In this document: piece by piece, positions 1 to 48,587 of the stretch | How the letters are laid out: each line of letters starts with the position of its first letter | Numbering within the stretch: position 1 is the first letter of the stretch | Position numbers and translations under genes: made by a program | The notes under the pieces: model-generated | What the model saw: the letters and a program-made list of their open reading frames with translations, nothing else | Told to the model about the DNA's origin: nothing | The model's database searches: none | Assembly (NCBI GenBank): GCA_017463985.1 | Contig: JAFUEH010000018.1 | Location: forward strand, 24,795 to 88,794 | Length of the DNA: 64,000 bases | DNA from: Eubacterium sp. | GTDB lineage: Bacteria; Bacillota; Clostridia; Oscillospirales; Acutalibacteraceae | Reading direction: 5' to 3'

Positions 1-1181
1 GAGGTACCGTAGAACTGCTGCGGCTTGTCAAGCGTTTCACCCTTCGACAGGAAGAAGCGGAACGAGCCGTCAGCCTTTTTGCCGACGCGAACGATCGTCA
101 CCTCCGGCGCCGCCTTACAGCCGAATTCGAGCGTCGGGCCGATCTTTCTGTTGCAGTGCAATCCGGCACAAGCGCCGGTATCCTCCCTTGCTAGTGAGCA
201 AGGCGCCATACCGCAGTGCCAGAATGTCAGCGTGCTCTCCGCCTCGTTCATGGAAACCGGATCGCCAAAGAAGGCAGGCTTGCCGGTAAGGAACATACTG
301 ATGAACATCGTCAACGCGCCGTAGGTATCTGCTTCGCAGGCGGCAGCCACGCCGAGATCATTCAAAATACCAAGCACGGAACACACCGGCGTACCGAAGG
401 CGGTGAAAAAGTCAGGCCAGCAACGGGAGGACAGCGCACCGATATGATGCTCCTTTACGAACTCATCGTAGGCCCTGTAAAGACGCGCAAAATCAGCCAC
501 GTTTTCCGGCTTGATACGATCCAAACCGTTGATGCGGTTTTGAGCGTCCGCAAGGTAAGCTGCCACATCTTCATCTGTAAAGCTCTTGGCCTTGTCAATC
601 AGCTCGCGCGCTTCCACAGAAACAAGATTAGCGCCGAATGTCGTCATCATTTCCATATCCAACGCTCTACCAAAGCCAAAGCCCTGCGGCGTATGACCGA
701 CCTGGGCGATATTCAGCGCTCTGAGCGCCTTCTTTACCTTAGCGGCAGCCACGGTAGCAGCCACCTTTTTCTGTACGGAGGCCTCTTCCGGAGAGCCGAA
801 AATATACTCAAACGCTCTGCCGAATTCATGCAGTACATTCGACGCAGAATAGGCGCCTGTCAGTGAATTCAGGCGCAGACGCGTACCGTCGATCACCGGC
901 TCACGCAATGTCCACAGCAGCACAGGACAGTCAAACTGACGCAGTACCTCGGCAATATAAGCCCCGTTGGCAAAGGTGATATTCTGCACGATTAGCAGAT
1001 CGGGGTGTTTGCCTTCTGTAAAGGTATTAAGCTTGTCAATACTGAGCAGCATTTCCTCGGGAACAATCACATCCGCGTCAATTTTTTGCAGCAGTGCAAC
1101 GGATTTTTCAAACTCCTTCTGCGCACTTTCCAGATGAAAAGTCGGTACGCCGATAGGCACATACATCATTTCAAAAGCCAT
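1..1181 (-). CDS. sftI: L-fucose isomerase-family ketol isomerase, probable sulfoquinovose isomerase (3' end outside window)
   Basis: The first 393 codons are visible; the C-terminus lies beyond the window edge. The start is ATG at 1181 behind GGAG. The protein has the FucI/AraA-type C-terminal isomerase fold, with likely metal ligands Glu283 (CEADTYGAL) and Asp307 (FFGDP). Family members interconvert aldoses and ketoses with a divalent metal. As the last visible gene of an operon with a sulfoquinovosidase, a transaldolase and a YihU-like reductase, it most likely converts sulfoquinovose to 6-deoxy-6-sulfofructose in the cytoplasm. The family is certain from the sequence; the substrate is inferred from neighbours. 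An arabinose or fucose isomerase is the alternative. Confidence 0.8.
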   Translation of the reverse strand, partial: MAFEMMYVPIGVPTFHLESAQKEFEKSVALLQKIDADVIVPEEMLLSIDKLNTFTEGKHPDLLIVQNITFANGAYIAEVLRQFDCPVLLWTLREPVIDGTRLRLNSLTGAYSASNVLHEFGRAFEYIFGSPEEASVQKKVAATVAAAKVKKALRALNIAQVGHTPQGFGFGRALDMEMMTTFGANLVSVEARELIDKAKSFTDEDVAAYLADAQNRINGLDRIKPENVADFARLYRAYDEFVKEHHIGALSSRCWPDFFTAFGTPVCSVLGILNDLGVAAACEADTYGALTMFISMFLTGKPAFFGDPVSMNEAESTLTFWHCGMAPCSLAREDTGACAGLHCNRKIGPTLEFGCKAAPEVTIVRVGKKADGSFRFFLSKGETLDKPQQFYGT

Positions 1182-1201
1182 TTTTCGTTTCTCCTATATC
1201 G

Positions 1202-1870
1202 TTAATAATACAATTCTTTATTTTCACCGATCAATCCTGTAAAGGCACCTTGCTTTACAAGAGGTTCTCTTTCCGGATGCGCGATCACCCACTTGTTTTT
1301 TTGCAGCAGCAGCGCACTCTCCGGATCGCCGTTTTTCTCTTTCACCGCGAGCGGCGTATTCGTGCCGCGCGGCAAAATAACAATATCCTTAAAGCCCCCG
1401 TCACAGGTACGGCACGGTGACAGATGCAGGGTCGTCTGAAACATTTCAATCGCTGTTCCCTTTGGTACAAAGAACACCGTTTCATCTCCGACATAAAAGC
1501 GGTTATCCTGCAGCTGCCAGGTATGTCCCAGCACCAGCATAAAGTCGGTCACAGCGATATTGATCTCGCTTCCCTTGTGATATTCAAAGCCGTTATAGGT
1601 GGTATTGCGGCCATTGCAGTAGCCAATCTGAATCGGTATACCGCCATACAACGTGTTTTGCACCTTTTCAAACACGGCTGTTTTTTCCATCGCCTCAATA
1701 CTGGGATAATAGATATTGCCGTTTTCAGGGATTTCCGTCTGCTGTTCCATATAAGCAAGCAAATCCGTAAAGTCATAACCCTTTACAATTCTTCCGTAAG
1801 GCAAAAAAACTTCATCAAAAACTGAATAGATTTTAACATCGTTACTCGCATTCAAACGGTCAAGCATCAT
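1202..1870 (-). CDS. DUF4867 family protein
   Basis: This 222-residue protein has no signal peptide or membrane segment. I recognise it as DUF4867, a family of unknown function with a predominantly beta, cupin-like appearance (many short hydrophobic strands, conserved His, Cys and Gly, for example LSPCRTCDGGFKDIVILPRG). From memory, proteins of this family occur in Firmicutes sulfoquinovose transaldolase clusters (called SftX there), which fits its place here between a reductase and an isomerase gene. It overlaps the upstream reductase gene by 11 bp, so the two are translationally coupled. A role such as sugar-phosphate or sulfosugar epimerase/mutarotase is possible but unproven. Confidence 0.75.
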   Translation of the reverse strand: MMLDRLNASNDVKIYSVFDEVFLPYGRIVKGYDFTDLLAYMEQQTEIPENGNIYYPSIEAMEKTAVFEKVQNTLYGGIPIQIGYCNGRNTTYNGFEYHKGSEINIAVTDFMLVLGHTWQLQDNRFYVGDETVFFVPKGTAIEMFQTTLHLSPCRTCDGGFKDIVILPRGTNTPLAVKEKNGDPESALLLQKNKWVIAHPEREPLVKQGAFTGLIGENKELYY

Positions 1871-2726
1871 AATCGCCTCTTACAATTTTATAGGTAGCAC
1901 GCCAGTCCTCTTTGCCGATCCCCTGCTGCATACCCTTGTCATAAACGCGTTTTGCGTTTTCCATGCCGGGCATCGGGAACTGCGCTTCGGCGGAAAGCCG
2001 CTGGCAGATACCAAGATCTTTATGCTCGTTTTCCAAAGAGAAGGCCGTCGTCCAGTTTTCTTCCTGCAGATTCTTCCACTGTCCGTCAAGGTAAAAATTC
2101 TGTCCGCCACCGTAAGAAATTGCCGTTGCATAATCTTCGATGGAAATACCCAATTTCTGCGCCAGCGCAATGGTTTCGTTCACGCCGTTCTGGATTTCGG
2201 CAACCAACGTATTATGACAAATTTTCATAACTAAGCCCTTGCCGTTTTCACCCATGCGGATAATATTGCTGCCCATATACGCCAGAATCGGCTGAATCAC
2301 GGGGAAAAGCTGCTCGTCACAGCCTACCAGCACACCAAGCGTTCCGGCAATCGCTGCCGGCTTTGATTTCACAACCGGAGCATCGGCAAACTGAGCGCCC
2401 TTTGCTTTGATCAGCTTTGCCACCTCTACCGAAACGGACGGATCAATGGTGCTCATATCAATACAAATTTTTGTGTTGTCAATATACGGTAACAGCTCGG
2501 TATACACCGCCCTCACGTGTTCAGACTTAGGCACCATAGTAATAATAATATCTGCCTGCTTTGCCACCTCAATATTGCTGTCAAGGCCGATAGCACCCAC
2601 GGTCTCCAGTTTGGCCACCTGCGCTTTATTCAAATCAGAACAATAGACCGTATCGTCATGTTTTTTTACAATATTCTCGCACATAGACTCGCCCATGATG
2701 CCGAGCCCGATAAAACCAATTTTCAT
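1860..2726 (-). CDS. YihU-like beta-hydroxyacid dehydrogenase, probable 3-sulfolactaldehyde reductase
   Basis: A 288-residue protein of the 3-hydroxyisobutyrate dehydrogenase family. The N-terminal Rossmann motif GFIGLGIMG (residues 4-12) binds NAD(P)H, and the catalytic lysine is Lys168 (GKGLVMKICHN). The C-terminal half is close to E. coli YihU: HKDLGI at 235-240 and a PMPG segment before the last helices. At the YihU sulfonate-binding pair Arg-Thr this protein has Lys120-Ser121, a conservative change. In this operon it probably reduces the 3-sulfolactaldehyde released by the transaldolase to dihydroxypropanesulfonate, regenerating NAD+ during fermentation. The family is clear; the substrate is inferred. 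Confidence 0.82.
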   Translation of the reverse strand: MKIGFIGLGIMGESMCENIVKKHDDTVYCSDLNKAQVAKLETVGAIGLDSNIEVAKQADIIITMVPKSEHVRAVYTELLPYIDNTKICIDMSTIDPSVSVEVAKLIKAKGAQFADAPVVKSKPAAIAGTLGVLVGCDEQLFPVIQPILAYMGSNIIRMGENGKGLVMKICHNTLVAEIQNGVNETIALAQKLGISIEDYATAISYGGGQNFYLDGQWKNLQEENWTTAFSLENEHKDLGICQRLSAEAQFPMPGMENAKRVYDKGMQQGIGKEDWRATYKIVRGDYDA

Positions 2727-2743
2727 TTGTTATACCCCGTCTG

Positions 2744-3430
2744 TCAGTCTGTAATCGTATTGTCCCAGGCTGCCTTAAATTTTGCCAGCCCAAAATCGGT
2801 GAACGCATGGTTGAAGCTGTCCTTAAACACCTGTAAACCGGCGGTGACAATGTCGGCACCGGCAACAGCACAGTCAACAATCTGTTTACCGTTTCTGACA
2901 GCGGCGCAGATAATTTCAGTTTTGCCAAGATAATTGTAGTTTTTATAAATATCAACAATATTTTGGATATACGGTACGCAATCCTCGCCATTGCTCTCCT
3001 TCCATCCGATGAACGGCGATACAAAGAGCGAATGGTTCTTCGCGGCAATCAGCGCCTGCGAGCCAGAGAACACAAGGGTCACATTTGTTCTGATGCCCTT
3101 CTGTTCCAGCTGGCGTGCCGCCGTAATACCCGACATAGTGCAGGGAATCTTGATAACGAAGTTCCGGCTCATAGAAGCAATTTCCGTTGCCATTTTCACA
3201 ATCTCATCCACCTCGTCAAGGTGCGGATTAATCTCTACTGAAATCGGGAATCTCTCCCAGCCTTCGATGCCCTTTTCTCTGACAAAATCAGCCAGCTCAT
3301 CCAGCACGGTGTAAAACGGCTTGCCGGAATTCATGATATGGTTTGGATTGGTGGTAACGCCATCGATCCCAAAGGTGTCATACGCTTCTCTGATTTCATC
3401 AATCTTTGCACTGTCTAAAAAATATTTCAT
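2744..3430 (-). CDS. sftT: Class I transaldolase, probable 6-deoxy-6-sulfofructose transaldolase
   Basis: A 228-residue short transaldolase (TalC/F6P-aldolase-like length). It opens with MKYFLDSAKIDEI and TTNPN (26-30), and the Schiff-base lysine is Lys94 in NFVIKIPCT. It has no membrane segments and is cytoplasmic. In the sulfo-TAL pathway such an enzyme cleaves sulfofructose to 3-sulfolactaldehyde and passes the dihydroxyacetone unit to glyceraldehyde 3-phosphate, giving fructose 6-phosphate. It is the second gene after the sulfoquinovosidase, 31 bp downstream, which supports that role. An ordinary transaldolase or fructose-6-phosphate aldolase cannot be excluded from sequence alone. Confidence 0.83.
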   Translation of the reverse strand: MKYFLDSAKIDEIREAYDTFGIDGVTTNPNHIMNSGKPFYTVLDELADFVREKGIEGWERFPISVEINPHLDEVDEIVKMATEIASMSRNFVIKIPCTMSGITAARQLEQKGIRTNVTLVFSGSQALIAAKNHSLFVSPFIGWKESNGEDCVPYIQNIVDIYKNYNYLGKTEIICAAVRNGKQIVDCAVAGADIVTAGLQVFKDSFNHAFTDFGLAKFKAAWDNTITD

Positions 3431-3461
3431 GTTTTTCCTCCATGGATTAAATAATGTTCAA

Positions 3462-5459
3462 TTATTTTAATGTATCACGTAAGGTATTCAGCATCGGGCA
3501 ACCTTTACGGATAAATACCGGCGGTTGACCAAGCGGCGCTTTAACGGTGACATGACCGCCTTTATATTCCTTGCCGCTAAAGAGATGAACCCATTCATCC
3601 TTCGGCAGATATACGGTACGTTCCTCGGCGCCTTGCTTCAATACCGGCGCAACCAAAATATCTCTGCCAAGCAAGAACTCATACGCTTCCTCAAACGCCT
3701 CCTGCTCGTCATAATGGAAGAACAGCGGACGAATCGCTGCCAAACCCTTCTCGGCATTTTCCTGCACCGCTTGCTGAATATACGGCTTGAGCGCCACGTG
3801 CAGCTTCGCCATTTTTGCATTATGCTTCAGCACAGCCTCGCTGGCATCATGCTGTGCATTCAGATCAGGATTCAGTCCCTCGTGTCCTCTCATCACCGGC
3901 GTAAAGGCATTCATTTCACACCAGCGCATATACAGCTCCTCGCTGCGCTTCAGGTTGAAGAAGGAGGTATAACCGCCCACATCGCTGTGGGATATACCGA
4001 AACCGCAGCAGGTCAGCGACAGCATAGCCGGAATGACCGAAGGCAGACCGAAATCGATGGAAAAATCGGTATGGTTATCACCGCACCACATCATAGTAGA
4101 ATATTTTGGCGTCGCCGTGTAACCTGCTCTGGTAAAGAACATGATCTCTCCCAGCTTACCGGCTTCCTCTACAGCCTCCCGGTTCAGCTGCGCCCAGCGT
4201 GCCGGCCAGGTATTATGTACCAGCTCGGCATCCTCGCCGCTGTACAGTACGGCGTCGGTCGGCAGGTATTCACCGAAATCCGCCATCCAGCCGGCCAGAC
4301 CAAAGTCGATCATATTCTTCTTGATAACGCCCTTTGTCCACTCCCACGCCTCGGGATTCGTCAGGTCGATCATGGCAGCCGGGAAGGTAGTGATCGTCAC
4401 GTAGTAGTCCTCGCCGTCCTTATTCTTGACGGTATAGCCCTTCTCGCTCGCCTCTTTATACAGCGGCTTTTCCACTGCCAAAAACGGATTGATATAGCCA
4501 AGCACCTTCACGCCCTGCTCACCAAGCTCCTTGATTTTTTCATCCAGTCCCGGATACAGCTCGCTGTCCCATTCCCAGTTCCAGTAAAGCTGCTTACCGA
4601 CAGCCGTCACACGGCGTCCTTCCCAGTCCTGAATCCAGGCACCGTTGACCGGAATACCGTGATCCTGCGCGATCTTGATCTTTTGCAGCAGGGTGTCCGT
4701 ACCGCCCTGGATACCGAGAATATGGCCGTCGTAGACCCAATCCGGCAGCGCCGGCTGTCTGCCGGTCAGCTCGGTCAGGTTGTTCATCAAATCAGGGAAA
4801 TCGTCACCGAAGCCGATGTAGAACGGTGCAATTTCATCTACCTTGATCACGTGCTTATTTTCAGCCGTGAAATCAAACTCGCTTCTGGCAGTCGCCAGCG
4901 AATGGTAAAAATACTTGCGGGAGCTGATAAAGGTTGGCTGCGCATAATAGGTCTCGTACTTATGGAAGGCCTGCTTGCGTGTGGTATTTTTAATACCGAT
5001 CACCTGCTTCACGAGCTTTTTGCCGATTTGCAGCGCGTTGATATGCTCAGCCACCCATACGTTGACGTGCTTGCCGCGCAGGTTGAATTCACTGAACACC
5101 TCGCCGCTGCCGTAAACACATTCCGCCTTCACAGCCGGCAGGGTCAGCCACATTCTGTTATAGCCGTCAAAGCCGCTAAAGGAAACACGAAAACGCCTGT
5201 TCTTTTCAATATCCAGCTGTACATCGCCGGCAGAGGTGGAGATGAGCGCGCTGCTGTCGCTGGCGGCAATATTGCTGATCTTAATAAATTTACGTTCCTC
5301 CAGCGCTTCCTTGATTTTAAAGCTGCCGTGGCTCATAGAATAGCTGTTTTCACCGTTGCCCACCTCAAGCGGCGCCGCCACATACTGGTCAATGGCAAAA
5401 ATTTCAGTACCGTCTTTTACGATCCTCAGTTTTCTGTCGTCCTTTTCAAATTTCAGCAA
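3462..5459 (-). CDS. yihQ: GH31 sulfoquinovosidase (YihQ family)
   Basis: Aligns along its length with E. coli YihQ, which hydrolyses sulfoquinovosyl glycerol to sulfoquinovose. I place the start at TTG 5459, because AAGGAG (5468-5473) lies 8 nt upstream; the in-frame GTG at 5468 overlaps that box. Numbering from TTG, the nucleophile is Asp394 (GWMADFGEY) and the acid/base is Asp461 (WCGD). YihQ sulfonate-pocket equivalents Gln251, Gln277, Trp293 and Tyr497 are present, but the position of YihQ Arg301 is Gln290 (VGKQLYW). There is no signal peptide, so the substrate must be imported. First gene of the operon. Confidence 0.9.
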   Translation of the reverse strand: MLKFEKDDRKLRIVKDGTEIFAIDQYVAAPLEVGNGENSYSMSHGSFKIKEALEERKFIKISNIAASDSSALISTSAGDVQLDIEKNRRFRVSFSGFDGYNRMWLTLPAVKAECVYGSGEVFSEFNLRGKHVNVWVAEHINALQIGKKLVKQVIGIKNTTRKQAFHKYETYYAQPTFISSRKYFYHSLATARSEFDFTAENKHVIKVDEIAPFYIGFGDDFPDLMNNLTELTGRQPALPDWVYDGHILGIQGGTDTLLQKIKIAQDHGIPVNGAWIQDWEGRRVTAVGKQLYWNWEWDSELYPGLDEKIKELGEQGVKVLGYINPFLAVEKPLYKEASEKGYTVKNKDGEDYYVTITTFPAAMIDLTNPEAWEWTKGVIKKNMIDFGLAGWMADFGEYLPTDAVLYSGEDAELVHNTWPARWAQLNREAVEEAGKLGEIMFFTRAGYTATPKYSTMMWCGDNHTDFSIDFGLPSVIPAMLSLTCCGFGISHSDVGGYTSFFNLKRSEELYMRWCEMNAFTPVMRGHEGLNPDLNAQHDASEAVLKHNAKMAKLHVALKPYIQQAVQENAEKGLAAIRPLFFHYDEQEAFEEAYEFLLGRDILVAPVLKQGAEERTVYLPKDEWVHLFSGKEYKGGHVTVKAPLGQPPVFIRKGCPMLNTLRDTLK

Positions 5460-5476
5460 AGCTCTCACTCCTTACA

Positions 5477-5501
5477 AATTGATTAACTCTGTTAATTAAT
5501 T
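5477..5501. promoter_or_regulatory. Palindromic operator overlapping the sulfoquinovose operon start site
   Basis: A 25-bp palindrome: two 11-bp arms around a 3-bp centre with a single mismatched pair (core GATTAAC-TCT-GTTAATTA). It begins inside the region just downstream of the -10 box, so a bound protein should block initiation. The same core lies downstream of the ptsH promoter at 48563-48587. The regulator is not encoded in the visible part of the operon. Confidence 0.7.
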
Positions 5502-5503
5502 GT

Positions 5504-5532
5504 ATTATAATAATTATTACTATTCTTGTCAA
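5504..5532 (-). promoter_or_regulatory. Sigma-A promoter of the sulfoquinovose operon
   Basis: On the minus strand TTGACA (5527-5532), a 17-bp spacer and TATAAT (5504-5509) are an exact consensus match. No clear terminator separates ispF from this promoter, so some read-through from the ispD-ispF operon is possible. Confidence 0.88.
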
Positions 5533-6714: not shown

Positions 6715-8389
6715 TCTCCGTCACCTCACTCAATTCTTCCTCGTTGGGCGTCACGTATTCCGTACGGTAACTGTCATAGATCACCATACCGGGCTTCGCA
6801 CCGTTGGGTTTATGCACATTTTTGACAATGGTATAATCGACTGCCACGTTAGAGGACTGCGCCGCCTTAGAATTCGCTGCAGCCAACAGCGCCGCCTGCC
6901 GAATCAGCTTATCCGTAAAGGGCTTTGCCTTGTCAGCGATAGCGATCACGTGCGTACCGGCCGCATCCTTAACATGAAACCACAGATCATAATTCTTAGC
7001 CGTTTTCAGCGTCAGCTCATCGTTTTGGACATTGTTCCTGCCCACCAGCAGCGTAAAGCCCTCCGCTGTCCTATACTTACGCGGCGGCAGCTTCTTTTCC
7101 TTGCCTTTTTTGACGGCTCTTTTCGACAGAAAGCCTGCGTCGCGCAGCTCGTTTTTGATGGCTGTAATTTCGCTGTCCGTCTGGGCACGGGAGAGGTTGT
7201 CCAGTACCGATTCCAGGTAAATGGCCTCATCCTCCGCTTCTTGAATAAAGGCGGTGAGCTTTTGCTCCGCCACCTGTTTTTTGCGGTATTCTTTATAGTA
7301 TTTCTGGGCATTTTGCGCCGGCGTCAACGTTGGGTCTGCCGGTATTCTCACCGGTGAACCGGCGTCGTAAAAATTCTCCAAATCATAAAACAGCGCTCCC
7401 TTTTCGAGCGAATAAAGATTCGCGTTGATCAGGTCGCCGTACATTTTCAGTTTTTCTTTATCCTTACAGTCCTCCAGCTCACGCTGGCGGTTCAGCGCCT
7501 TCCTGACAGCACGCTCCTGCAGCGTCGTCAGCGTTTTAAACAGATCGTCCGAGCGTTGACGAATACGTTCCAGCTTGACCTGCTCAAAGAAAAAGTAATC
7601 GATCAGCTCCGAAAAGGTATCAAAGCTTTTGAGCACACACAGGTCGCCGTATTGCCTCGGCACAAAAAATGTAAAGTCCTTCGGCTTGTCAAGAAGAACG
7701 ACTGTAGGCGTCGGCGCCTTTACGGCATCACGCAACTCAAAAAGACCCATTCCGTTTTCCAGCTCCCTGGCAACGATGGGCGAGATTCCCTGTAACACCT
7801 CGGCGGCCGCCTTGCTTTTTTTCATCGGCAGCGCGGCGATCGCTTTATCGATCTCCTTCACAGGATCTTTCAGGATGTTCATTTTATGCTGCTGCGGCGG
7901 CAGCATGTATGGCAGCCCCGGCAGCACCTCGCGGAAGCTGGATTTCAGCGCATCGATTCTTTTCACACATTCCACGATGATCCCGTCACTGTTAACGAGA
8001 ATAATGTTACTGTGCCGCCCCATGATCTCTGTAATCAAGCGGAACTGAACCGGATCGCCCAGCTCATTGGTAGCGTCAAAATGCAGCGTTGCAATCCGCT
8101 CAAAGCCGTCCTGCGTAATATCCGTCAGCCGTGCGCCGCCAAGATGCTTTCTCAGCAGCATCGTCAGCATCGGCGGCTGCTTAGGATTTTCTACAAACTG
8201 CTTTGTCAGCTGAATCCGTGCCGCATCCGCCTTTGCAGAGAGGAGCAGCCGCTTGGCTCCTTCCGGCGTTCGGAAGGCAAACAGCAGCTCATCCCGTGAT
8301 GGCTGATAGATCTTATCGACCCGACAGCCTAATAAATTTTGCTTTATTTCCTGAAGCGTCAGGTGTAAAAAAATTCCGTCAAAAGACAT
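6707..8389 (-). CDS. rqcH: Ribosome quality control protein RqcH (NFACT family)
   Basis: A 560-residue protein with the NFACT-N domain at residues 1-200 (MSFDGIFLHLTLQEIK, LLSAKADAARIQLT, EIMGRHSNIILV), a long central charged coiled coil (about 260-430) and the C-terminal NFACT-R part (about 450-545, with DLWFHVKDAAGTHVIA). RqcH binds the 50S subunit obstructed by a stalled nascent chain and directs addition of C-terminal alanine tails. Older annotations call it fibronectin-binding protein FbpA. It lies 5 bp after nif3. MutS2, also linked to ribosome rescue in B. subtilis, is encoded at 56.3-58.6 kb. Confidence 0.93.
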   Translation of the reverse strand: MSFDGIFLHLTLQEIKQNLLGCRVDKIYQPSRDELLFAFRTPEGAKRLLLSAKADAARIQLTKQFVENPKQPPMLTMLLRKHLGGARLTDITQDGFERIATLHFDATNELGDPVQFRLITEIMGRHSNIILVNSDGIIVECVKRIDALKSSFREVLPGLPYMLPPQQHKMNILKDPVKEIDKAIAALPMKKSKAAAEVLQGISPIVARELENGMGLFELRDAVKAPTPTVVLLDKPKDFTFFVPRQYGDLCVLKSFDTFSELIDYFFFEQVKLERIRQRSDDLFKTLTTLQERAVRKALNRQRELEDCKDKEKLKMYGDLINANLYSLEKGALFYDLENFYDAGSPVRIPADPTLTPAQNAQKYYKEYRKKQVAEQKLTAFIQEAEDEAIYLESVLDNLSRAQTDSEITAIKNELRDAGFLSKRAVKKGKEKKLPPRKYRTAEGFTLLVGRNNVQNDELTLKTAKNYDLWFHVKDAAGTHVIAIADKAKPFTDKLIRQAALLAAANSKAAQSSNVAVDYTIVKNVHKPNGAKPGMVIYDSYRTEYVTPNEEELSEVTEIE

Positions 8390-8393
8390 AGCG

Positions 8394-9146
8394 TTATCCT
8401 ACTGATTGAATCGGGTTATCATAAGGCGCAGCAATAAATTCCACGTCAGGGAACATGACCTCCAGCTTATCCTGCAGCATTAAAAACGGCAGATTTTCCG
8501 TTTCATAGTGACCGGCAGCGATTACCGGCTTCCCCTCCTCCGCGGCCTCCAGCATCGGATGGTATTTCATATCACCGGTGATAAACACGTCAGCGTCCGC
8601 AAGCGCAGCGTCCAAAAATTCCTCACAAGCACCGCCGCCGACGGCAACCGTCTTGATCACCTTTTCCGTATCGGTATAGCGCAGCGCGCCGCTGTGCAGC
8701 ACATTCGCAACGTGCTCCGCCAAATCGTCAATACTCATTTCGCGTTCCAGCTCCCCAACGACCAGCAGCGGCTCACGGGTAGAGTGGCGCGTGTTTTGCA
8801 AGCCGAGAATCGTCGCTAAATTATCGTTAATGCCGCCCATCGCCAAATCAAAATTAGTATGCGCACTGATGGCCGCCACATCGCCGTGAACCAGTGTGTA
8901 AACCGCGCTGTCCTGCTTCACCGCCGTCAAGCCCTTAAAAATGACCGGATGGTGCGTCAGGAGCAGGTCTGCGCACATCTCCGCCGCAAACGCACATACG
9001 TCCTTCGTCGCGTCCAGCGCGAGCACACAGCGCCTGACCGGCTTTCTGAAATCACCGATCAGGTGACCGGAATTATCCCAGTCATCCTGTGTGCTAAACG
9101 GCGCAATGCTATTAATATAATCATAAATATTTTTAACAGTCGTCAT
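8394..9146 (-). CDS. Nif3-like dinuclear metal-centre protein (DUF34)
   Basis: A 250-residue member of the Nif3/DUF34 family, often named GTP cyclohydrolase 1 type 2 in databases. Metal-binding motifs are visible: LLTHHPVIF (about 60-68), SAHTNFDLAMGG (about 95-105) and the C-terminal GHYETE. Its physiological reaction is not settled; it probably handles a nucleotide or cofactor-like substrate in the cytoplasm. It follows trmK with a 14-bp overlap, a pairing that is very common in Firmicutes. Confidence 0.93.
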   Translation of the reverse strand: MTTVKNIYDYINSIAPFSTQDDWDNSGHLIGDFRKPVRRCVLALDATKDVCAFAAEMCADLLLTHHPVIFKGLTAVKQDSAVYTLVHGDVAAISAHTNFDLAMGGINDNLATILGLQNTRHSTREPLLVVGELEREMSIDDLAEHVANVLHSGALRYTDTEKVIKTVAVGGGACEEFLDAALADADVFITGDMKYHPMLEAAEEGKPVIAAGHYETENLPFLMLQDKLEVMFPDVEFIAAPYDNPIQSVG

Positions 9147-9774
9147 TGATTTTTTCCTCTATTGCGGCGATCACCTCGCGGTAATCAAAACCGCCTTTCT
9201 GTTTTTTTCGCAGGTAGCGGAGCAGGTGCTCAAAATAGGCGCGGTCGCTGAAATCGTTGATATTGCCCAAAAAGCAGCGCACATCGTCCGCCTCTGTGTA
9301 ATGGCCGGTATAAGCAGCGTCCAACACGCTGTAATGGTGGCCTGCGTCCTCCAAAATAAGATCATGCGCGATCTCAAACCCGTTTTCGTATAACCAGCGG
9401 CGTGCCAGCTCCGGATGCGTCATCGGATTGAGCACCAGGTGCTTTCCGCGCAGGTCACCAGCAGCCGACAGGATGCTCGCGATCAGCTCGCCGCCCATTC
9501 CGGCAAGCAGCAGATCGTCCACCGCGTCTAAATCCAGCTTTTCGGTTCCGTCCGACAGGACGCACGTAATCTGCGCCTCATAGCCGCATTGCGCCACCAG
9601 CGAGCGGCAAGCGGAGAGCGGTCTTTCGTTAATATCTGACGCGATCGCAGCGGTGATACGGCCGCTTTGCACCAAATATACCGGTATATAGCCATGATCG
9701 CAGCCAATGTCCGCTAACCGACAGCCGGGCGTGACAAGCGCGGCGCACGCCTGTAATCGTTTTGATAATTTCAT
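9133..9774 (-). CDS. trmK: tRNA (adenine(22)-N(1))-methyltransferase TrmK
   Basis: A class I SAM methyltransferase. Motif I is ADIGCDHGYIPV (about residues 20-31), followed by ASDINERPLSACR and LLAGMGGELI. It methylates A22 in the D-arm of tRNAs. I use ATG 9774 (MKLSKRLQAC) because this matches the family N-terminus; an upstream in-frame GTG at 9786 has a poorly spaced Shine-Dalgarno box. First gene of the trmK-nif3-rqcH-ispD-ispF operon, with a near-consensus promoter 30 bp upstream. Confidence 0.93.
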   Translation of the reverse strand: MKLSKRLQACAALVTPGCRLADIGCDHGYIPVYLVQSGRITAAIASDINERPLSACRSLVAQCGYEAQITCVLSDGTEKLDLDAVDDLLLAGMGGELIASILSAAGDLRGKHLVLNPMTHPELARRWLYENGFEIAHDLILEDAGHHYSVLDAAYTGHYTEADDVRCFLGNINDFSDRAYFEHLLRYLRKKQKGGFDYREVIAAIEEKINDDC

Positions 9775-11210: not shown

Positions 11211-14200
11211 TTAACCCTGGTATACGCCGTTATCGTTGTCTACTGAATTGACAACATCACCGTAGATGATTGCCTCAATCTCAGTTGTATCCGTTGAGCC
11301 GTCATCACGTGAATTAATAAACTGATACTTATACTTCACATAGGATCTTGCGTATACGGTCTTGGTTGAGCTTGCCGTGATATAGAAGTAAGAATCAAGC
11401 AGTCTCTTATCCGCCTTGTAGGTATAAACACCGGCAGTGCCTTCCTTAAACGCATCGCGGTCAGCGGCAATGGTAGCGTTGGTAGTAAACACCGTACCCG
11501 CCTCAACAAATTCCGCTGCCTGGCTGCTGTCGCCCTCGATCTGCTCAATATTGGTGAAGTAGGTATGAGCGGCGTACTTGCTCCTGCCGTCAGCTTCGCT
11601 CATCTTTTCCATAATGGTGTAAACGAACGGCATCTTTGTCTTACGACGTTCGATTGCAAAGCGGAAGTAGTCCATATCGTCGTAATCGGTTGTGCTCTTT
11701 GGTGTCATGTCGAGCTCTTCCTGACCGTTTTCCGTAGTAATATAGAACGTTTCAAGATTGAAGGTGTCCGCCGTCATCTCCGGACTGGTTAAATCGTACA
11801 GCTCCATATCGCATACAGCAAAGTAGTCAAAGCTCTTTGTGTAGCTAATCGGGAGATAATCAAATACTTGATCTTCGCCAGCGTTGTTCTTCATAACAAT
11901 CGCTACGAAATCGCTGCCTGCATCGGAGGTTACCTTAACCTTTTCGTCGTACTGAATACCCTCTTTAATCACTACGCCGTTATATTTGAGTGTAAAGGTC
12001 TTATCCTTATTTGTCAGCTCGTACTTAATCGGAATTTCAACAACGCCCTTATCGTTAACGAAATCACCCAGCGTTTTCTTTTCGTCAGTAACGGCAATAT
12101 CAAAGCCCTTAACTGTGTAGTTCGGAATCTTGAAGAGATCGTCGCTGATATCAAAGCTTCTGTCGCCAACGGTTAAGGTTCCGTTTGCCTCATCTACCGC
12201 AATTTCGGTAGTCTTATCGGCAACAAACGTATACGCCGATTTTCCGTACTGATTTTCAATCATGACAGCCACATCGTTTTCTGATGTTGCCTCAGGCGCT
12301 ACATACGCCTTAACCTTCACAGGACTTTGAACCGCAAGATCAAAGGCGCTTGTTGTCGCCTGACCTGTTACAGTGCCGTCCTTTACGAGCTTCGTGTTGC
12401 AGTCGCTGTAGACGCCGTCACGGTTATTATCGGTCCAGATCTCCCACTTGTAAATCTTACCCTTGTAGGCATCAGGAACGTTGAAGGTCAGCGTAGAACC
12501 GTAAAGCACTTCCTTAGCTTCGCCGGTGTTCTCGTCAAACTTAAAGACATCTGCCGGTAACAGACCTTGCTCATAAATGTCGTTAACGTCAAGGTCAATC
12601 AGCTCTGTTACGCCGTCGCCGTCGATAACAAACAGCTCGATAGGATAGGTAACCGAATACTTCACGTCATTAGCATTTGTAATCGCAGTAAGCAGCTCCG
12701 TAATACCTTGGTCAACCATCTCCTGCGGTGTTTCGCCGGGATCACCGATGCCGCCGTTAATAACCGTATCGAACTTCGCCTTACCGGTTTCAATCACTAA
12801 GTCGTTGGCGTAACGCTCAAAGTCGATCGTCGTGTAAGCAAACTGCAGCGCGTCATATACGCCCATGTCGGCGGTGTTATCCTCAAAGTCCTCGTCGTGT
12901 TCCTCTTCCCAATCCTCAGGATAGAGCCATTTATGAGAATTATCCGCGTTACAGATGAATACACCGGTATCCCAAGCCTGACGGTCAGACTTATCGCCTG
13001 CTCTGTGGTCAAACTTAACGGTGTGTCTGGTTCGTTTTTCAGCATTAGCTAAGCCCTTGAAGGCTGCATCAATTGCTTGTGCGGCATCTTCGATGGAGTT
13101 AACGGTAACCGTATGCTCCTCGCCGTCATCGTCAAGATAAGTGTAGGTAATGGTCTGATCAACATAACCCTCGTGACCGACAACCGTGTCGCCGTCCTTG
13201 ATCGGGTTAGCAATATTGCTCATTGCCGTCCGACCTGCCTCTACAGCAGCCTCATAAATGTTCCAGTAAACACCGGACTGGCAGGTACCAACTGCTTCCC
13301 ATTCCTCAGAAGATTTTTCTTCAAGCTGCTCTTTAAGATCTTTATAGTCGCCGTCTGTGCCGTTTCTGTCGTCAGCAAGCTCTTCCAGCGCGTTTTCGGG
13401 AGTCAAGGTAACAACATTACCGTCTTCATCCTCGTAGGTATAACCGCCGTCATCCGTCTTAAGGTGCTGCAACGCTTCGTCTGTATCGGAATCGAGCAGC
13501 GCCCAAATATCATAAGCGCATTGCTCAGTAGAGGCTACGTAACCATCGGCGATCGCTGTTGCACCGGAAACACCAAGATCATCAAGGCGGTACTTATCAG
13601 AGGCTTGGTACTTATCGTTATCGAACTCATATCTCGCGCTATTGTTCGGGGAGCAAGCGGTCAGCTTATCCATATCCTCAAAGTAACCCTCGAGACCGCC
13701 CTCGGTAAATTTGCTGATATCAAGAGGAGCGTCCGTCAATAAACTGTCCGCAGCATGTACTCTGTCAAGTACCGGTTTATAATTGATTACATACAACGCA
13801 AGATTAGATAATGTTCCGCTCGCATACGTCTGATAGCCGCCTACTCCAAAAATTCCACGGGAATAATCATCTTGACTGGTAGCGGCATAAACACTGCTTC
13901 CTGCACGAGTTCCTCTCATTGTTGTATTGATAGTAGTATATTTGTAATAATACTTTTGCCATCCAGTGTTAAAGGTCTTAGAAGAATCGGTATACGGATT
14001 CTTAATCCGCATTACGTTTGCATAGAACTGTTCGGGGTCATCGCTGTTACCCTGATGGTCATTTCTTACAGCAGATACTAAACCCGAGGTAAATGTTGCC
14101 TGATTACGGAAAGCATCTTTTGTTTCAGCAATACTGTCAGCATTGAGTAATTCGTTAAGAGAGGCAACCTCAATATAGGTTCTTGTAGGTGTAACTGTGC

Positions 14201-16232
14201 CATTCTTTACTGCATCTTTCAGACCTTCTGAAACCTTTGTATTAACATCAAATACATAGCGACTGGTTTCATCGGCATTTTCCTCAACATATTCATCTTC
14301 GTCGCCTGGCGTATATGTTCTTGTTTTCCAGTTATACAGGAACGGCAGATCTGCAGTGTTGGAAACATAACCGAAAAGGGAACGTATATCATCACCCAGT
14401 AGAGCCACGCCACCCTCGGAATCAAAGCCGACTAATACAGGAACCGTAAACGGATTGGTATCTGTACCATTTGTACCATCATACACTGCAACTGCTTTAG
14501 GTACATAAAAATATGTAGTTGCATAGTCACTGTTAATTCTTAAAACAGTACCGTTACCTGTATCGCCCTCAGTTTCACCGCCCCATGCACGCATACGGGT
14601 CGGCGTATGACCGGCATAAACGAGATTATTAAAGGTCTCTTTGTAAGCTTCTGTCTTGACCGAACCGGCGTTATCGCCATCGAACGCCTCCGGCGCAACG
14701 TAAGTATAAGAATTTTCTGTACCGACTTCGTTCATGTTTTTGATTGCCATATCAAATTCATAAACGACCTCAGATATCGACGGGTCAAAGTTATTGTCCA
14801 AACGTCTGCCGTACTTCAACGCATCTCTGTACTGCACCGCCGTCATATACAGCTGATAAGCATCCAGCATATTCGTATAGACAACTTGATTGCCCATCAT
14901 ATCCACATATCTGTCGATAACGTTATCCAGCGTCTGCACAACTGCGTCAACGTCATCGAGCGTTGCGGTGGAGAGTGCTATTACAATCGAGTCAATCTCG
15001 TCACCGCACTTAACGGCGGCTTCTTCCATACCGGCGGCATAATCGTAGCTGTTCGGGTCAAAATCCGTCGCCTTTTGAATCGCAAAGAAGATGGATTCCA
15101 GTGCACCGTCTTTGATATAATCGGTATTGGCAAAATTGCTAGCATTGTTATTTAACAGTGCTACCAAATTATCTTTAATCAGCTTATAGTTAATAACATG
15201 AACCTTGGTGGCTGTATAGTCGCAAGGCTCCATAGCACGATAACCCTTAACGCTCCAGCTGTTGGTTACTTTCCAAACATAAGAACCTTCACCCATGAAC
15301 CTAACAGCGTCCACAGAGGAATAACCTGTCAAAGGCTCGTTTGCGCCAGCCAATGAGTATACTAAGCTGTTTCTGAACGCCATCATGCTCGAGGTGCTTT
15401 CGCTTGCCCAACGATATCTGCCGGCGTTGTACTCATCCAGCGCAACATACGGTCTGACAGCCGGACGATAGCTGACAGGATAATCCAAATATGAGCCATC
15501 CTTGGTATCCAAGTCCGGCCATGCAGGCGAATTAAACCGAGTCGATGACGTAGCATAACCGCCTTCTGTTGTACCGTTCCAATCTTTCGTTAACTCAAAA
15601 TAGTTAGAGCTAAGATAGATATTCTGCGGCATCAGTGTAGCATTGCTGCCATTACCGTGCATACCGACGATAACCGGAATCTTTGGGTCTGTTTCACCGT
15701 CATAGAAGATAACCGTATTCGGATAATAGAAATAATAAAAGTTTTCGTATTCCCAGTTAATACCGAGCGCACCGGTGGTACCGTACTGGTAAGTAGCGCC
15801 ATTCGTTGAGTCATACTTTGCATTCGTCTCACCGTCAGAATACAAAATATTCGCATAATCGTCCGTCGTCGGCTGTGACGTACCGGTGCCGATCTTTACA
15901 GCAGCGTTAGCCGTCGGTTCCTCAAATTCCTCCATCGCAGCGATGGCACCCTCTAAGTACTCGCGCGCTTCGTTCATTTCCGCTGCAGTACCGTCCTTAC
16001 GGATTTCAGCCGCAACGAGGTACGCTTCGTACGCGTCGTACATATTGGTTTTCAGCGCGCTGTAGCCTTCGGTAGCAAGCGGAACGATATAGTCCGTTTC
16101 AAAGCTATCTAAGGCATTCTGCAAATCACTTTCAGCGTCTGCAAAGGCAGTGATCCCCACGATTGGCAGCGTGGTGAGCACGAGCAGCGCCGCCAAAAGG
16201 ACGGACAGCAATCTTTTACTCATCTTTTTCAT
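11211..16232 (-). CDS. Very large secreted protein of unknown function with internal duplication
   Basis: 1673 residues. A clear signal peptide (MKKMSKRLLSVLLAALLVLT..., cleavage after about residue 31, AFA-DA) is followed by a helical FIVAR-like stretch. There is no C-terminal anchor (LPXTG, SLH, wall repeats or membrane helix). Two modules recur: YYPNTVIFYDG near residue 171 and YVPKAVAVYDG near 577, then HVINYKLIKDN near 347 and YVINYKPVLDR near 816. The protein is thus partly a tandem duplication of about 400-470 residues. The C-terminal third is beta-rich and acidic. No catalytic motif is recognised; an adhesin or polymer-binding role is a guess. Confidence 0.85.
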   Translation of the reverse strand: MKKMSKRLLSVLLAALLVLTTLPIVGITAFADAESDLQNALDSFETDYIVPLATEGYSALKTNMYDAYEAYLVAAEIRKDGTAAEMNEAREYLEGAIAAMEEFEEPTANAAVKIGTGTSQPTTDDYANILYSDGETNAKYDSTNGATYQYGTTGALGINWEYENFYYFYYPNTVIFYDGETDPKIPVIVGMHGNGSNATLMPQNIYLSSNYFELTKDWNGTTEGGYATSSTRFNSPAWPDLDTKDGSYLDYPVSYRPAVRPYVALDEYNAGRYRWASESTSSMMAFRNSLVYSLAGANEPLTGYSSVDAVRFMGEGSYVWKVTNSWSVKGYRAMEPCDYTATKVHVINYKLIKDNLVALLNNNASNFANTDYIKDGALESIFFAIQKATDFDPNSYDYAAGMEEAAVKCGDEIDSIVIALSTATLDDVDAVVQTLDNVIDRYVDMMGNQVVYTNMLDAYQLYMTAVQYRDALKYGRRLDNNFDPSISEVVYEFDMAIKNMNEVGTENSYTYVAPEAFDGDNAGSVKTEAYKETFNNLVYAGHTPTRMRAWGGETEGDTGNGTVLRINSDYATTYFYVPKAVAVYDGTNGTDTNPFTVPVLVGFDSEGGVALLGDDIRSLFGYVSNTADLPFLYNWKTRTYTPGDEDEYVEENADETSRYVFDVNTKVSEGLKDAVKNGTVTPTRTYIEVASLNELLNADSIAETKDAFRNQATFTSGLVSAVRNDHQGNSDDPEQFYANVMRIKNPYTDSSKTFNTGWQKYYYKYTTINTTMRGTRAGSSVYAATSQDDYSRGIFGVGGYQTYASGTLSNLALYVINYKPVLDRVHAADSLLTDAPLDISKFTEGGLEGYFEDMDKLTACSPNNSARYEFDNDKYQASDKYRLDDLGVSGATAIADGYVASTEQCAYDIWALLDSDTDEALQHLKTDDGGYTYEDEDGNVVTLTPENALEELADDRNGTDGDYKDLKEQLEEKSSEEWEAVGTCQSGVYWNIYEAAVEAGRTAMSNIANPIKDGDTVVGHEGYVDQTITYTYLDDDGEEHTVTVNSIEDAAQAIDAAFKGLANAEKRTRHTVKFDHRAGDKSDRQAWDTGVFICNADNSHKWLYPEDWEEEHDEDFEDNTADMGVYDALQFAYTTIDFERYANDLVIETGKAKFDTVINGGIGDPGETPQEMVDQGITELLTAITNANDVKYSVTYPIELFVIDGDGVTELIDLDVNDIYEQGLLPADVFKFDENTGEAKEVLYGSTLTFNVPDAYKGKIYKWEIWTDNNRDGVYSDCNTKLVKDGTVTGQATTSAFDLAVQSPVKVKAYVAPEATSENDVAVMIENQYGKSAYTFVADKTTEIAVDEANGTLTVGDRSFDISDDLFKIPNYTVKGFDIAVTDEKKTLGDFVNDKGVVEIPIKYELTNKDKTFTLKYNGVVIKEGIQYDEKVKVTSDAGSDFVAIVMKNNAGEDQVFDYLPISYTKSFDYFAVCDMELYDLTSPEMTADTFNLETFYITTENGQEELDMTPKSTTDYDDMDYFRFAIERRKTKMPFVYTIMEKMSEADGRSKYAAHTYFTNIEQIEGDSSQAAEFVEAGTVFTTNATIAADRDAFKEGTAGVYTYKADKRLLDSYFYITASSTKTVYARSYVKYKYQFINSRDDGSTDTTEIEAIIYGDVVNSVDNDNGVYQG

Positions 16233-16253
16233 TCAAAAACCTCCTAATTCTTC

Positions 16254-16354
16254 AGGTACCGCCTGCTGCGCTGCGCTTACTGACTACGCGCCGGACAGCC
16301 GCTGGCTCCTGTTCGGGGGAACGCCAAGACAGGGTCAACAGGCATACTTTCCCC
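16254..16354 (-). ncRNA. Structured 5' leader of the 1673-residue secreted protein gene (unidentified, riboswitch-like)
   Basis: The leader between promoter and start codon is far more GC-rich than its flanks and folds well. GTA-GCCTG (16339-16347) can pair with CAGGC-GTAC (16255-16265) as a closing stem. Inside are the hairpin GTTC-CCCC-GAAC, AGCC-AGC-GGCT and a GCGC stem. The CCCC loop can pair with GGGG at the 5' end (16351-16354), suggesting a pseudoknot. It ends 7-8 nt before the AGGAGG box of the gene. I do not recognise a known riboswitch class. Confidence 0.5.
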
Positions 16355-46343: not shown

Positions 46344-48161
46344 TTATGAATTGTAATAATTAAATATCGCCTCTGCATTCTTCCTGCTGACGCCGGGAAC
46401 AGACGCCAGCTCTTCGGCACTCGCTGCCTTGATGGCGGTGACCGTCTTAAACTGCTTCAACAGTGCCTTTGCCTTTTTCTCGCCAATACCCTCTATGCGC
46501 ATCAAACCGGAGGAAAAGCTCGATTTTTGGTGCTTCTTATGGTGATAGGTGATTGCAAAGCGATGCACCTCCTCCTGAATCACAGAAACCAGCGTGAACG
46601 CGCTGCGGTGAGAATTGATCGCAATTTCACCGCCGTCATAAGCGATCGCACGCGTGCGGTGCTTGCTGTCCTTCACCATGCCGAACACCGGCACCTCCAG
46701 CTTCATTTGACGGATCACCGGCAGCACAGCCTTTACCTGCGGCTCACCGCCGTCAAGCAGGATCAGGTCCGGCAACTGCTTAAAAGTGCTGTCCTCTTCG
46801 TCCTCGTAATAATGCTTAAAGCGGCGCGTCAGCACTTCGTTCATCGAGCCGACGTCGTTCTGACCGTCAAAGCCCTTGATTGAAAATCGCTTGTAGGCCT
46901 TTTTCATCGGCCGGCCGTTATGGAACACCACCATACCGGCCACGTTATCGGCACCGAAGGTATGGGATATATCATAGCTTTCGATATATTCCGGCGGCTT
47001 CGGCAAACCGAGCAGCGACGCCAGCTCTTCCAGCGCAGCCAACTCCTTACCGAGCCTCCCCTGCTGCTGTGCCAGATGCTCATTAGCATTTTTAATGCAC
47101 ATATTGACAATCGCCAGGTGTTCGCCCTTTTGCGGATGTAGCAGCTCCACCCGTTTACCGCGCAGGGTCTCCAGATGGCGGTGCAGTAGCTCCTCCTCGG
47201 CAATATCGCCGTCGACAGCGATCCGTGACGGAATCCGGCTGCGCATGGAATAATAGCGCTCGATCAGCTCAAAGCGCGCCTCCGGCAGACTATCCACGCT
47301 GTCGATCAGCCAATGCTCGCTGTCTGTCAGCCGTCCGTTTTGGAAGCGCAGCACGTCAAAGCACGCCTTTTTATTGCCGTTGACCAGGGCGAAAACGTCC
47401 TCCTCCGGCACATTGATAGAGACCACCTTTTGGCGTTCCTCCAAATTTTTAATGGCCTTGATACGGTCGCGCATTTTAGCCGCCTTTTCAAACTCCAGCG
47501 CTTCGCTATACTGCGTCATTTTTTCCTGCAGCTCTGCCACCGCTTTTTTGCTGCCGCCCTTCAAAAAAGAAACGGCGTCCTTGACAGTCGCGGCATATTC
47601 CGCCTGCGTAATGTCGCCGTGACAGGGGGCGGAGCACAAGCCCATGAAGCCGTTCAGGCAAGGACGGCTTTTACCGTAATCGCGCGGAAACTGTTTATTA
47701 CAGCGCGGCAGCTTAAAGATCTTCAGCGTTTCCTCCACGGCGTTTTTCACAGAAAAATTGGAAATAAACGGGCCGATATACTCCGCCGTTTCATCATCCA
47801 TGCGGTAGCATTCCTGAATCCGCGGAAAATCGCCCTTGGTCACTTTGATATAGTTATAGCCCTTATCGTCCTTGAGGAGAATATTATATTTTGGTCGGTG
47901 CTGCTTGATTAAAGAACACTCCAGCACCAGCGCTTCAAATTCGGAGTCACAAAGAATGTAGTCAAAATCGTCTACATTCTCTACCATTCTGATCACCTTC
48001 ATCGAATGGTTTGCATGAGAGCCAAAGTAGGAGGAAACCCTGTTTTTCAGCGCCTTTGCCTTGCCGATATAGATAATTTTTTTATCCTTGTTTTTCATGA
48101 TATACACGCCGGGCGTCAGCGGCAGTGCCATTGCCTTTTTGCGCAGCTCCTTTTCCGTCAA
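46344..48161 (-). CDS. uvrC: Excinuclease ABC subunit C
   Basis: 605 residues. GIY-YIG nuclease domain at the N-terminus (GVYIMKNKDKKIIYIGKA), a UvrB-binding UVR segment (about 195-230), the C-terminal RNase H-like nuclease (SYDISHTFGADNVAGMVVF, LILLDGGEPQ) and helix-hairpin-helix motifs at the end (IEGIGEKKAKALL, VPGVSRKNAEAI). It makes both incisions in nucleotide excision repair. An extended -10 promoter (TGG-TATAAT, -10 at 48194-48199) lies 33 bp upstream. Confidence 0.97.
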   Translation of the reverse strand: MTEKELRKKAMALPLTPGVYIMKNKDKKIIYIGKAKALKNRVSSYFGSHANHSMKVIRMVENVDDFDYILCDSEFEALVLECSLIKQHRPKYNILLKDDKGYNYIKVTKGDFPRIQECYRMDDETAEYIGPFISNFSVKNAVEETLKIFKLPRCNKQFPRDYGKSRPCLNGFMGLCSAPCHGDITQAEYAATVKDAVSFLKGGSKKAVAELQEKMTQYSEALEFEKAAKMRDRIKAIKNLEERQKVVSINVPEEDVFALVNGNKKACFDVLRFQNGRLTDSEHWLIDSVDSLPEARFELIERYYSMRSRIPSRIAVDGDIAEEELLHRHLETLRGKRVELLHPQKGEHLAIVNMCIKNANEHLAQQQGRLGKELAALEELASLLGLPKPPEYIESYDISHTFGADNVAGMVVFHNGRPMKKAYKRFSIKGFDGQNDVGSMNEVLTRRFKHYYEDEEDSTFKQLPDLILLDGGEPQVKAVLPVIRQMKLEVPVFGMVKDSKHRTRAIAYDGGEIAINSHRSAFTLVSVIQEEVHRFAITYHHKKHQKSSFSSGLMRIEGIGEKKAKALLKQFKTVTAIKAASAEELASVPGVSRKNAEAIFNYYNS

Positions 48162-48562: not shown

Positions 48563-48587
48563 GTTAGATTAACAGCGTTAATTTAAC
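48563..48587. promoter_or_regulatory. Palindromic operator in the ptsH leader
   Basis: Two 11-bp arms around a 3-bp centre with one mismatched pair; core GATTAAC-AGC-GTTAAT. It spans roughly +5 to +29 of the ptsH transcript. The 15-bp core ATTAAC-N3-GTTAAT is identical to that at 5477-5501. Confidence 0.65.

Follow-up and report, generated by a model that had tools for sequence, protein, structure and literature searches.

The left end of the window, a 64-kb stretch of the genome of a Eubacterium sp., an uncultured gut-type member of the Clostridia, carries the first five genes of what is very probably a sulfofructose-transaldolase (sulfo-TAL, or Sft) operon, a system of an already known kind through which the sugar of plant sulfolipid, sulfoquinovose, and its glycerol glycoside would be fermented. 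These adjacent genes fill positions 5468-1 of the minus strand, as an earlier reading made from the DNA letters only (the sequence-only reading) had described. The window's edge cuts the fifth gene, for an isomerase, of which 393 of the 444 residues are encoded within the window and the last 153 bases lie to its left (whole gene, locus L003 4642-5976). In the parent genome (2.58 Mb, 41 contigs, 97% complete), where contig C19 of 88,794 bases contains the window, the operon has eight genes, encoding a glycoside hydrolase of family 31 (GH31), a transaldolase, a reductase, a DUF4867 protein, the isomerase, a TauE-type exporter, a ROK regulator and a GPH importer, with intergenic spacings of -37 to +31 bases. 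An exporter and an importer thus do stand among the next genes to the left, where a transporter or exporter had been expected.

The transaldolase was the diagnostic enzyme. Its closest solved relative was the sulfofructose transaldolase BmSF-TAL (8bc3, 8bc4), followed by ordinary transaldolases at E 1e-41 or weaker, and 147 of 221 aligned residues were identical to BmSF-TAL. For this enzyme, passages of PMC11659671 describe a catalytic triad, residues that orient the sugar and a W-A-R motif that orients the sulfonate; R172 as the R of this motif, and A169 or A170 as its A, are our reading of the sequence. The BmSF-TAL residues D6, E61, K89, N111, S133, W138, A169, A170 and R172, which include the Schiff-base lysine and the residues read as the W-A-R motif, were shared by the window protein and all 80 relatives; no sulfonate-binding residue among them has been lost, the point on which the sequence-only reading had staked its claim for the transaldolase. 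The window protein differs in being seven residues longer, at two places, and in having Cys in place of Val168. We firmly regard it, judging by these residues, as a sulfofructose transaldolase, and it follows from this identity and the conserved residues that the operon would make fructose-6-phosphate and dihydroxypropanesulfonate (DHPS). A search for plasmid-borne SftT was unproductive, as matches in 196 plasmid records were all below 60% identity (39-40% among the 15 matches listed).

The relatives were obtained from a single genome-collection scan with the transaldolase, from which the best 80 of 121 confirmed relatives were used; the titles of many refer to the guts of goat, sheep, deer, buffalo, horse or rabbit. 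In these loci (n = 80), the transaldolase was accompanied by the reductase in 75 cases, GH31 in 71, the isomerase in 71, the exporter in 61, the MFS importer in 58, DUF4867 in 48 and ROK in 36, counts that depend on bit-score thresholds of our choosing, which differed by family, and that are minima because many contigs are short. As the gene set recurs beside the transaldolase in 80 loci from other genomes, it is not a product of chance. Within the relatives sample, SftT was found in 16 of 37 same-genus genomes, counting the window's own, and in none of the 23 that belong to other families of the order. Together, the families, the SftT residues and this recurrence support the enzyme set for fructose-6-phosphate and DHPS that the sequence-only reading had proposed.

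SftG, SftI, SftT and SftR are given in passages of PMC8397734 as the four essential genes of an Sft cluster, and by family and position all four are contiguous in the operon. The earlier calls of a fucose-isomerase-family isomerase and a DUF4867 protein agreed with Pfam, where Fucose_iso_C and DUF4867 both scored above their cut-offs. The isomerase matched the NCBIfam SftI model (NF048012) over its full length at 413 bits, short of the at least 700 bits required of an equivalog, and a sequence search at E 0.001 found no solved relative; it appears to work like SftI, though we do not file it as an equivalog. The reductase had been called YihU-like, and this stood insofar as the family domains are present, 85 of 287 residues are identical to YihU and the catalytic Lys171 is retained. 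It did not stand at the level of the YihU model NF012005 (151 bits, cut-off 348), nor at the GRTS stretch, which is missing, with Lys at the position of YihU Arg123, a residue of that stretch (as read from E. coli yihU) that we take to be important. Lys occupies this site in the window and in 73 of the 74 loci covering it, mostly inside the motif VVKSKPAA, and because a Lachnospiraceae locus (L071) has VVKSKPAA too, the motif may be of an SftR type. The DUF4867 protein belongs to PF16161 and its closest solved relative was 9gyy (E 3e-68); passages of PMC11968277 describe DUF4867/SftX as conserved in Sft clusters, with no activity found for SftX.

The two scores below curated cut-offs and the altered GRTS site weigh against a sulfoquinovose operon, and the scores would suit one that acts instead on another, related sulfosugar or on a sugar phosphate. 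We consider that alternative highly improbable, since the transaldolase retains the sulfonate-orienting Trp138, a second Faecalicatena transaldolase with Arg at the Trp138 site was judged closer to fructose-6-phosphate aldolase in passages of PMC11659671, and the sulfofucose pathway is described, in passages of PMC12421959, as coupled to a sulfolactate sulfolyase.

The GH31 enzyme departs furthest from its characterized counterparts. Its closest neighbours in both sequence and fold were BmSQase (8R56), YihQ and E. rectale SftG, and a fold search of the PDB with its AlphaFold2 (AF2) model (mean pLDDT 89) returned sulfoquinovosidases as the first 23 matches (TM 0.89-0.94), with other GH31s listed at 0.70-0.73. 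Both catalytic Asp residues, Trp304, Tyr508, Gln262, Gln288 and His537 are retained in the GH31s (one of 69 is cut before Tyr508); we take the Asp pair and Trp304/Tyr508 to have the roles they have in YihQ-type sulfoquinovosidases. The earlier YihQ-type call therefore held for sequence, fold and catalytic residues, but not for the position of YihQ Arg301, presumably the sulfonate-binding residue, which is Gln290 in the window enzyme. Arg is present at this site in the solved sulfoquinovosidases that were aligned, namely 8R56, YihQ, E. rectale 6PNR and Agrobacterium 5OHY, whereas Gln is present in all 69 GH31s beside SftT that cover it (71 were found, two of which end before the site). Because the Arg301 feature is lacking, we do not file the window GH31 as a canonical sulfoquinovosidase, but we think that it still works as one.

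Further changes are fixed in the window clade, including T358, N530, R282 and, beside the acid/base Asp, N462, where the Arg-types have Gln. Residue 282 is Lys in three of the four Arg-types, Ile in YihQ and Cys in the Gln-type enzyme of L071. Arg282, picked from the alignment as a basic pocket residue, could compensate for the lost Arg301, and was set aside as an explanation as L071 has no Arg there. A sample of the phylum (398 genomes, 1e-120) contributed six more GH31s, of which three have Arg and Trp304, a fourth combines Arg with Tyr at position 304, that of L124 has Gln and the last does not cover the site. In a midpoint-rooted tree of 25 rows, in which L071 and L128 were long branches, the window clade grouped with L071 (100/99) and L124 with the Arg-types (100/99); from the latter, Gln at the Arg301 site may have arisen twice. 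Locus L124 (genome G144) carries its Gln-type GH31 at 7653-9695 and, some 5 kb further along at 14923-16260, a homologue of SftI (48%); no SftT match was found in the 18 kb examined.

These changes could also mean that the window-clade GH31 cleaves another alpha-glycoside, for example one of a neutral sugar or of a different anionic one, leaving free sulfoquinovose to the remaining enzymes of the operon. The exchange of Arg for Gln in 70 of 70 enzymes (the window's and its 69 neighbours among SftT loci), the other clade-fixed residues and the frequent occurrence of Gln or Glu in alpha-glucosidases at the corresponding position would be in keeping with such a change of substrate. We nevertheless think it unlikely, given the retained catalytic and pocket residues, a fold that is closest to sulfoquinovosidases by a wide margin, the occurrence of Gln with a nearby isomerase homologue in L124, which groups with Arg-types, and the possible compensation by Arg282, despite the Cys of L071. 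The searches of open-licence literature, as far as their texts extended, yielded no Gln-type GH31 sulfoquinovosidase that we recognized. According to passages of PMC13219744, a long branch holds 64% of the yihQ variants in one rumen library and 47.5% in the other, and this branch is a candidate for the Gln-type clade. The pocket change shared by the GH31s beside SftT in these metagenome-assembled genomes would lie outside the rumen yihQ amplicon if the primer names 1201F and 1526R in those passages denote positions in the gene, as codon 301 of yihQ corresponds to bases 901-903.

Returning to the sulfoquinovose operon, we infer the substrates and the directions of transport as follows. The GPH symporter would import sulfoquinovose or its glycoside, from which GH31 would free sulfoquinovose, and SftX/DUF4867 may assist ring opening or epimerisation. 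SftI would convert sulfoquinovose to 6-deoxy-6-sulfofructose, and SftT would transfer a three-carbon unit from it to glyceraldehyde-3-phosphate, giving fructose-6-phosphate and 3-sulfolactaldehyde. The reductase would then use NADH to form DHPS, which TauE would export.

The operon shares GH31, SftT, SftR, SftX (DUF4867) and SftI with Agathobacter/Eubacterium rectale EUBREC_2585-2596, Bacillus megaterium Sqv and Enterocloster clostridioformis, and DHPS is the predicted end product here as in the sulfo-TAL/sulfo-SFT clusters of anaerobic Firmicutes. It differs from these systems in the Gln of its GH31, which is Arg in BmSQase and E. rectale SftG, and in that the sole glycyl radical enzyme (GRE) found here other than a pyruvate formate-lyase (PFL) is not HpfG-like (HpfD was not searched for). 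It also has a ROK regulator with a palindrome of its own, a point on which published sulfo-TAL clusters were not compared. The E. coli yih operon, of the sulfoglycolytic Embden-Meyerhof-Parnas (sulfo-EMP) type, is similar in its YihQ-like GH31, YihU-family reductase and DHPS product; here, however, a transaldolase does the cleaving, the isomerase belongs with the fucose isomerases, and neither a kinase nor an aldolase of yih type is among the eight genes.

Scans of the DNA identified 21 promoter-like sites against 11 in shuffles and 19 terminator-like sites against 13 in shuffles. Given these shuffle counts, any single site is weak evidence, but the operon's two were the strongest of each kind. 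This promoter-like and this terminator-like site flank the eight closely spaced genes, which therefore look like one transcription unit. The pattern TTGACn-(16-18)-TAnnnT was present upstream of GH31 in 35 of 64 regions from relatives. The GH31 gene, which ends at 3462, could start at GTG 5468 or TTG 5459, and the latter was preferred because, by eye, AAGGAG lies 8 bases upstream.

Close to the promoter is a palindrome (TTAACnnnGTTAA) on which the ROK protein would act as a repressor, probably released by sulfoquinovose or an intermediate. The 64-kb window contains two matches to it (0.13 expected; 1 of 100 shuffles reached two), the second at 48569, between open reading frames (ORFs) 46344-48161 and 48735-49472. 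In the 43 relatives whose contig continues for 7 kb or more past the transaldolase, a limit of our choosing, the exact palindrome was found upstream of GH31 in 17 of 24 loci with ROK and 0 of 19 without it (Fisher 9e-7); in all 63 usable loci the figures were 18 of 30 and 2 of 33 (Fisher 5e-6), both p-values being inflated as they ignore kinship among the genomes. A one-mismatch form was present in 9 of the 12 ROK-bearing loci that lack the exact one. Two observations run counter to the association: the exact form is missing from 7 of the 24 long ROK-bearing loci, and one long locus without ROK has a one-mismatch palindrome. Overall, the ROK gene and the palindrome tend to co-occur. The palindrome was absent from L087, the locus of the GRE considered below, and no riboswitch reached Rfam gathering scores in the five stretches scanned (L087, the window, L132, L116 and L002).

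Table 1. Positions of the operon's genes and signals, and of the glycyl radical enzyme region elsewhere in the genome; positions without a locus prefix are those of the window.
Feature	Position	Strand or place	Details
Putative sigma-70 promoter of the operon, TTGACA-17-TATAAT	5504..5532	-	12/12 consensus match
Palindrome TTAAC-AGA-GTTAA (TTAACnnnGTTAA), 5-3-5, candidate ROK operator	5483..5495	.	8 bases past the -10 box
GH31 sulfoquinovosidase-like glycosidase (SftG/YihQ type), Gln290 at the YihQ Arg301 site	3462..5459	-	Glyco_hydro_31 above Pfam cut-off
Sulfofructose transaldolase (SftT), assigned from sequence	2744..3430	-	TAL_FSA above Pfam cut-off; BmSF-TAL 8bc3 E 9e-92
Predicted 3-sulfolactaldehyde reductase (SftR), beta-hydroxyacid dehydrogenase family, NAD-dependent	1860..2726	-	NAD_binding_2 and NAD_binding_11 above Pfam cut-off
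DUF4867 cupin (SftX)	1202..1870	-	PF16161, 246 vs 28.7-bit cut-off
Predicted sulfoquinovose isomerase (SftI), fucose-isomerase family	1..1181, on past the left edge	-	Fucose_iso_C 38.6 bits
TauE-family membrane protein, putative exporter	L003 3887-4678	left of window	PF01925, 72 bits
ROK-family regulator with helix-turn-helix	L003 2765-3874	left of window	PF00480 105 bits; HTH_24 28 bits
MFS_2/GPH sugar symporter	L002 16063-17742	left of window	TIGR00792, 308 vs 231-bit cut-off
Putative terminator, 15-pair hairpin then T run	L003 1047-1014		directly after the symporter gene
HpsG/IslA-family glycyl radical enzyme and activase	L087 5121-8519 (G000:C32)		divergent from the sulfite-assimilation operon

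Directly downstream of the Sft terminator are genes that by eye are of a metal-type ABC transporter (L002 12951-15574). Elsewhere in the window, 11211-16232 encodes a 1673-residue protein with a signal-like start that by eye is large and repetitive.

The product of the operon had also been proposed as a sulfite source for gut sulfidogens. The operon itself would yield DHPS and no sulfite, though DHPS becomes a source once another enzyme cleaves it, and a candidate for such an enzyme is present in the same genome. A search of the genome for PFL-like enzymes gave two matches, a 759-residue frame without sulfonate residues and an 828-residue enzyme on contig C32. The latter scored 1036-1061 bits to three structures, of which 7kq3 is labelled isethionate sulfite-lyase; we take 5ymr to be IseG and 6lon to be HpsG. 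It scored 1363 bits on the NCBIfam HpsG model NF048011 (cut-off 1000; product name 3-sulfopropanediol dehydratase) and 465 on the HpfG model (cut-off 1000), and HpfG-type dehydration of DHPS downstream was accordingly discarded as a candidate. Its activase reached 369 bits on the matching activase model (cut-off 430). Like HpsG and IslA (IseG), the C32 enzyme keeps the IseG residues Arg187, Gln191 and Arg676 and the C466/E468 pair; the sulfonate-binding roles of the Arg/Gln residues are described in passages of PMC6453916. It has Thr310 as in IslA (Ala in 6lon), but Gln680 where IseG has Phe680 and 6lon has Ile, a Gln shared with two of the 14 other GREs aligned (those of genome G417 and its neighbour G461). 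As this pocket is unlike either known type, the enzyme may act on isethionate or on some other sulfonate.

The C32 lyase also differs from HpsG/IslA in having an assimilatory, not a respiratory, neighbourhood. The activase gene adjoins it, and divergent from it runs an operon for DUF2292, an O-acetylhomoserine-sulfhydrylase-like protein (MetY), a siroheme-type sulfite reductase (SiR) with ferredoxin domains, TusA, ThiS (C-terminal GGGC), ThiF, a JAB protease and a second ThiF, with siroheme-synthesis genes on the other side. We take the MetY-SiR-TusA-ThiS-ThiF-JAB set to be a protein-thiocarboxylate route to homocysteine. Sulfite reductase was found at 1e-60 in two of 37 genomes searched, the window's own and the same-genus G007, in which the same sulfite operon is preceded by genes for CysD-like and CysN-like proteins and for a flavoprotein read as AprA-like. 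In G007 this CysDN-type sulfate activation joined to the sulfite operon (L132 195-10671) lies about 6 kb before the Sft operon; other genes stand between, and we treated a physical link of Sft and sulfite assimilation as weak. In the window's own genome, PF01507 was not found by a search that was positive in 14 of 14 control genomes, PF01747 was not found by one positive in 5 of 14, and there was no AprA-like match in a search that had no positive control; these absences are uncertain because the assembly is 97% complete.

The closest relative of the C32 lyase (70%, in G417; L116 7098-15073) is followed by an activase, SsuC-, SsuB- and SsuA-type importer genes (181 bits on the SsuA model, cut-off 163.5; the SsuC-type match did not reach its model's cut-off) and a NirA-like sulfite reductase. 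In the window's own genome, an SsuC-type query for a sulfonate importer gave only two permease matches, of 23 and 25%. Passages of PMC11423573 report that Bilophila islAB enabled a Rhodobacter mutant to grow again with isethionate supplying its sulfur, and such a lyase can therefore feed assimilation. The lyase was confined to the window's own genome among 60 relatives (E 1e-200), and was present in 11 of 398 phylum genomes (1e-250) and 4 of 189 in the family of G417 (1e-290). The neighbourhood and the relatives would fit a lyase supplying sulfite for biosynthesis, and no assimilatory HpsG/IslA in a fermenter was recognized in the texts that searches of open-licence literature covered.

We infer, at a little under an even chance and compatibly with the sulfo-TAL reading, that the C32 lyase cleaves part of the DHPS in the cell and that the resulting sulfite, once reduced, goes into the synthesis of methionine and cysteine. 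The HpsG and HpfG scores, the kept sulfonate-binding residues with the Cys/Glu pair, the divergent assimilation operon, the sulfate-activating genes that precede this operon in G007 and were not found here, the setting of the G417 relative and the Bilophila precedent (PMC11423573, in the passages cited) all point this way. Against it, the lyase and the Sft operon lie on different contigs, SftT occurs without the lyase in 15 other genomes of the genus, and the lyase is absent from all 80 SftT loci within the locus DNA examined. Eight other lyase regions (of 10 other genomes) contained no MetY, SiR, ThiF or siroheme-gene homologue at 1e-8. The unusual pocket may serve another sulfonate, the TauE exporter suggests that DHPS leaves the cell, and the incomplete assembly makes the absences uncertain. 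Somewhat less likely still, and tentative, is the full picture of a fermenter that takes both carbon and sulfur, in which Sft makes DHPS, a Gln680-type lyase releases sulfite to the sulfite reductase and a thiocarboxylate-type methionine route without a sulfate-activating arm, and a sulfoquinovosidase clade binds sulfonate without the usual Arg.

The operon is thus of an already known kind and adds an Sft-carrying lineage, with SftT in 16 of the 37 same-genus genomes. What most deserves further study is the possibility that a fermenter itself uses sulfolipid sulfur, followed by the Gln-type GH31 clade and the ROK palindrome. Fermenting clostridia are said to have been reported in the 1990s to assimilate sulfonate sulfur, a paper that our literature search did not show. 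If the C32 lyase does act on DHPS in the cell, fermenters could retain sulfolipid sulfur that is otherwise pictured as going to sulfide producers, and a family of lyases familiar from respiratory sulfidogens would gain an assimilatory branch.

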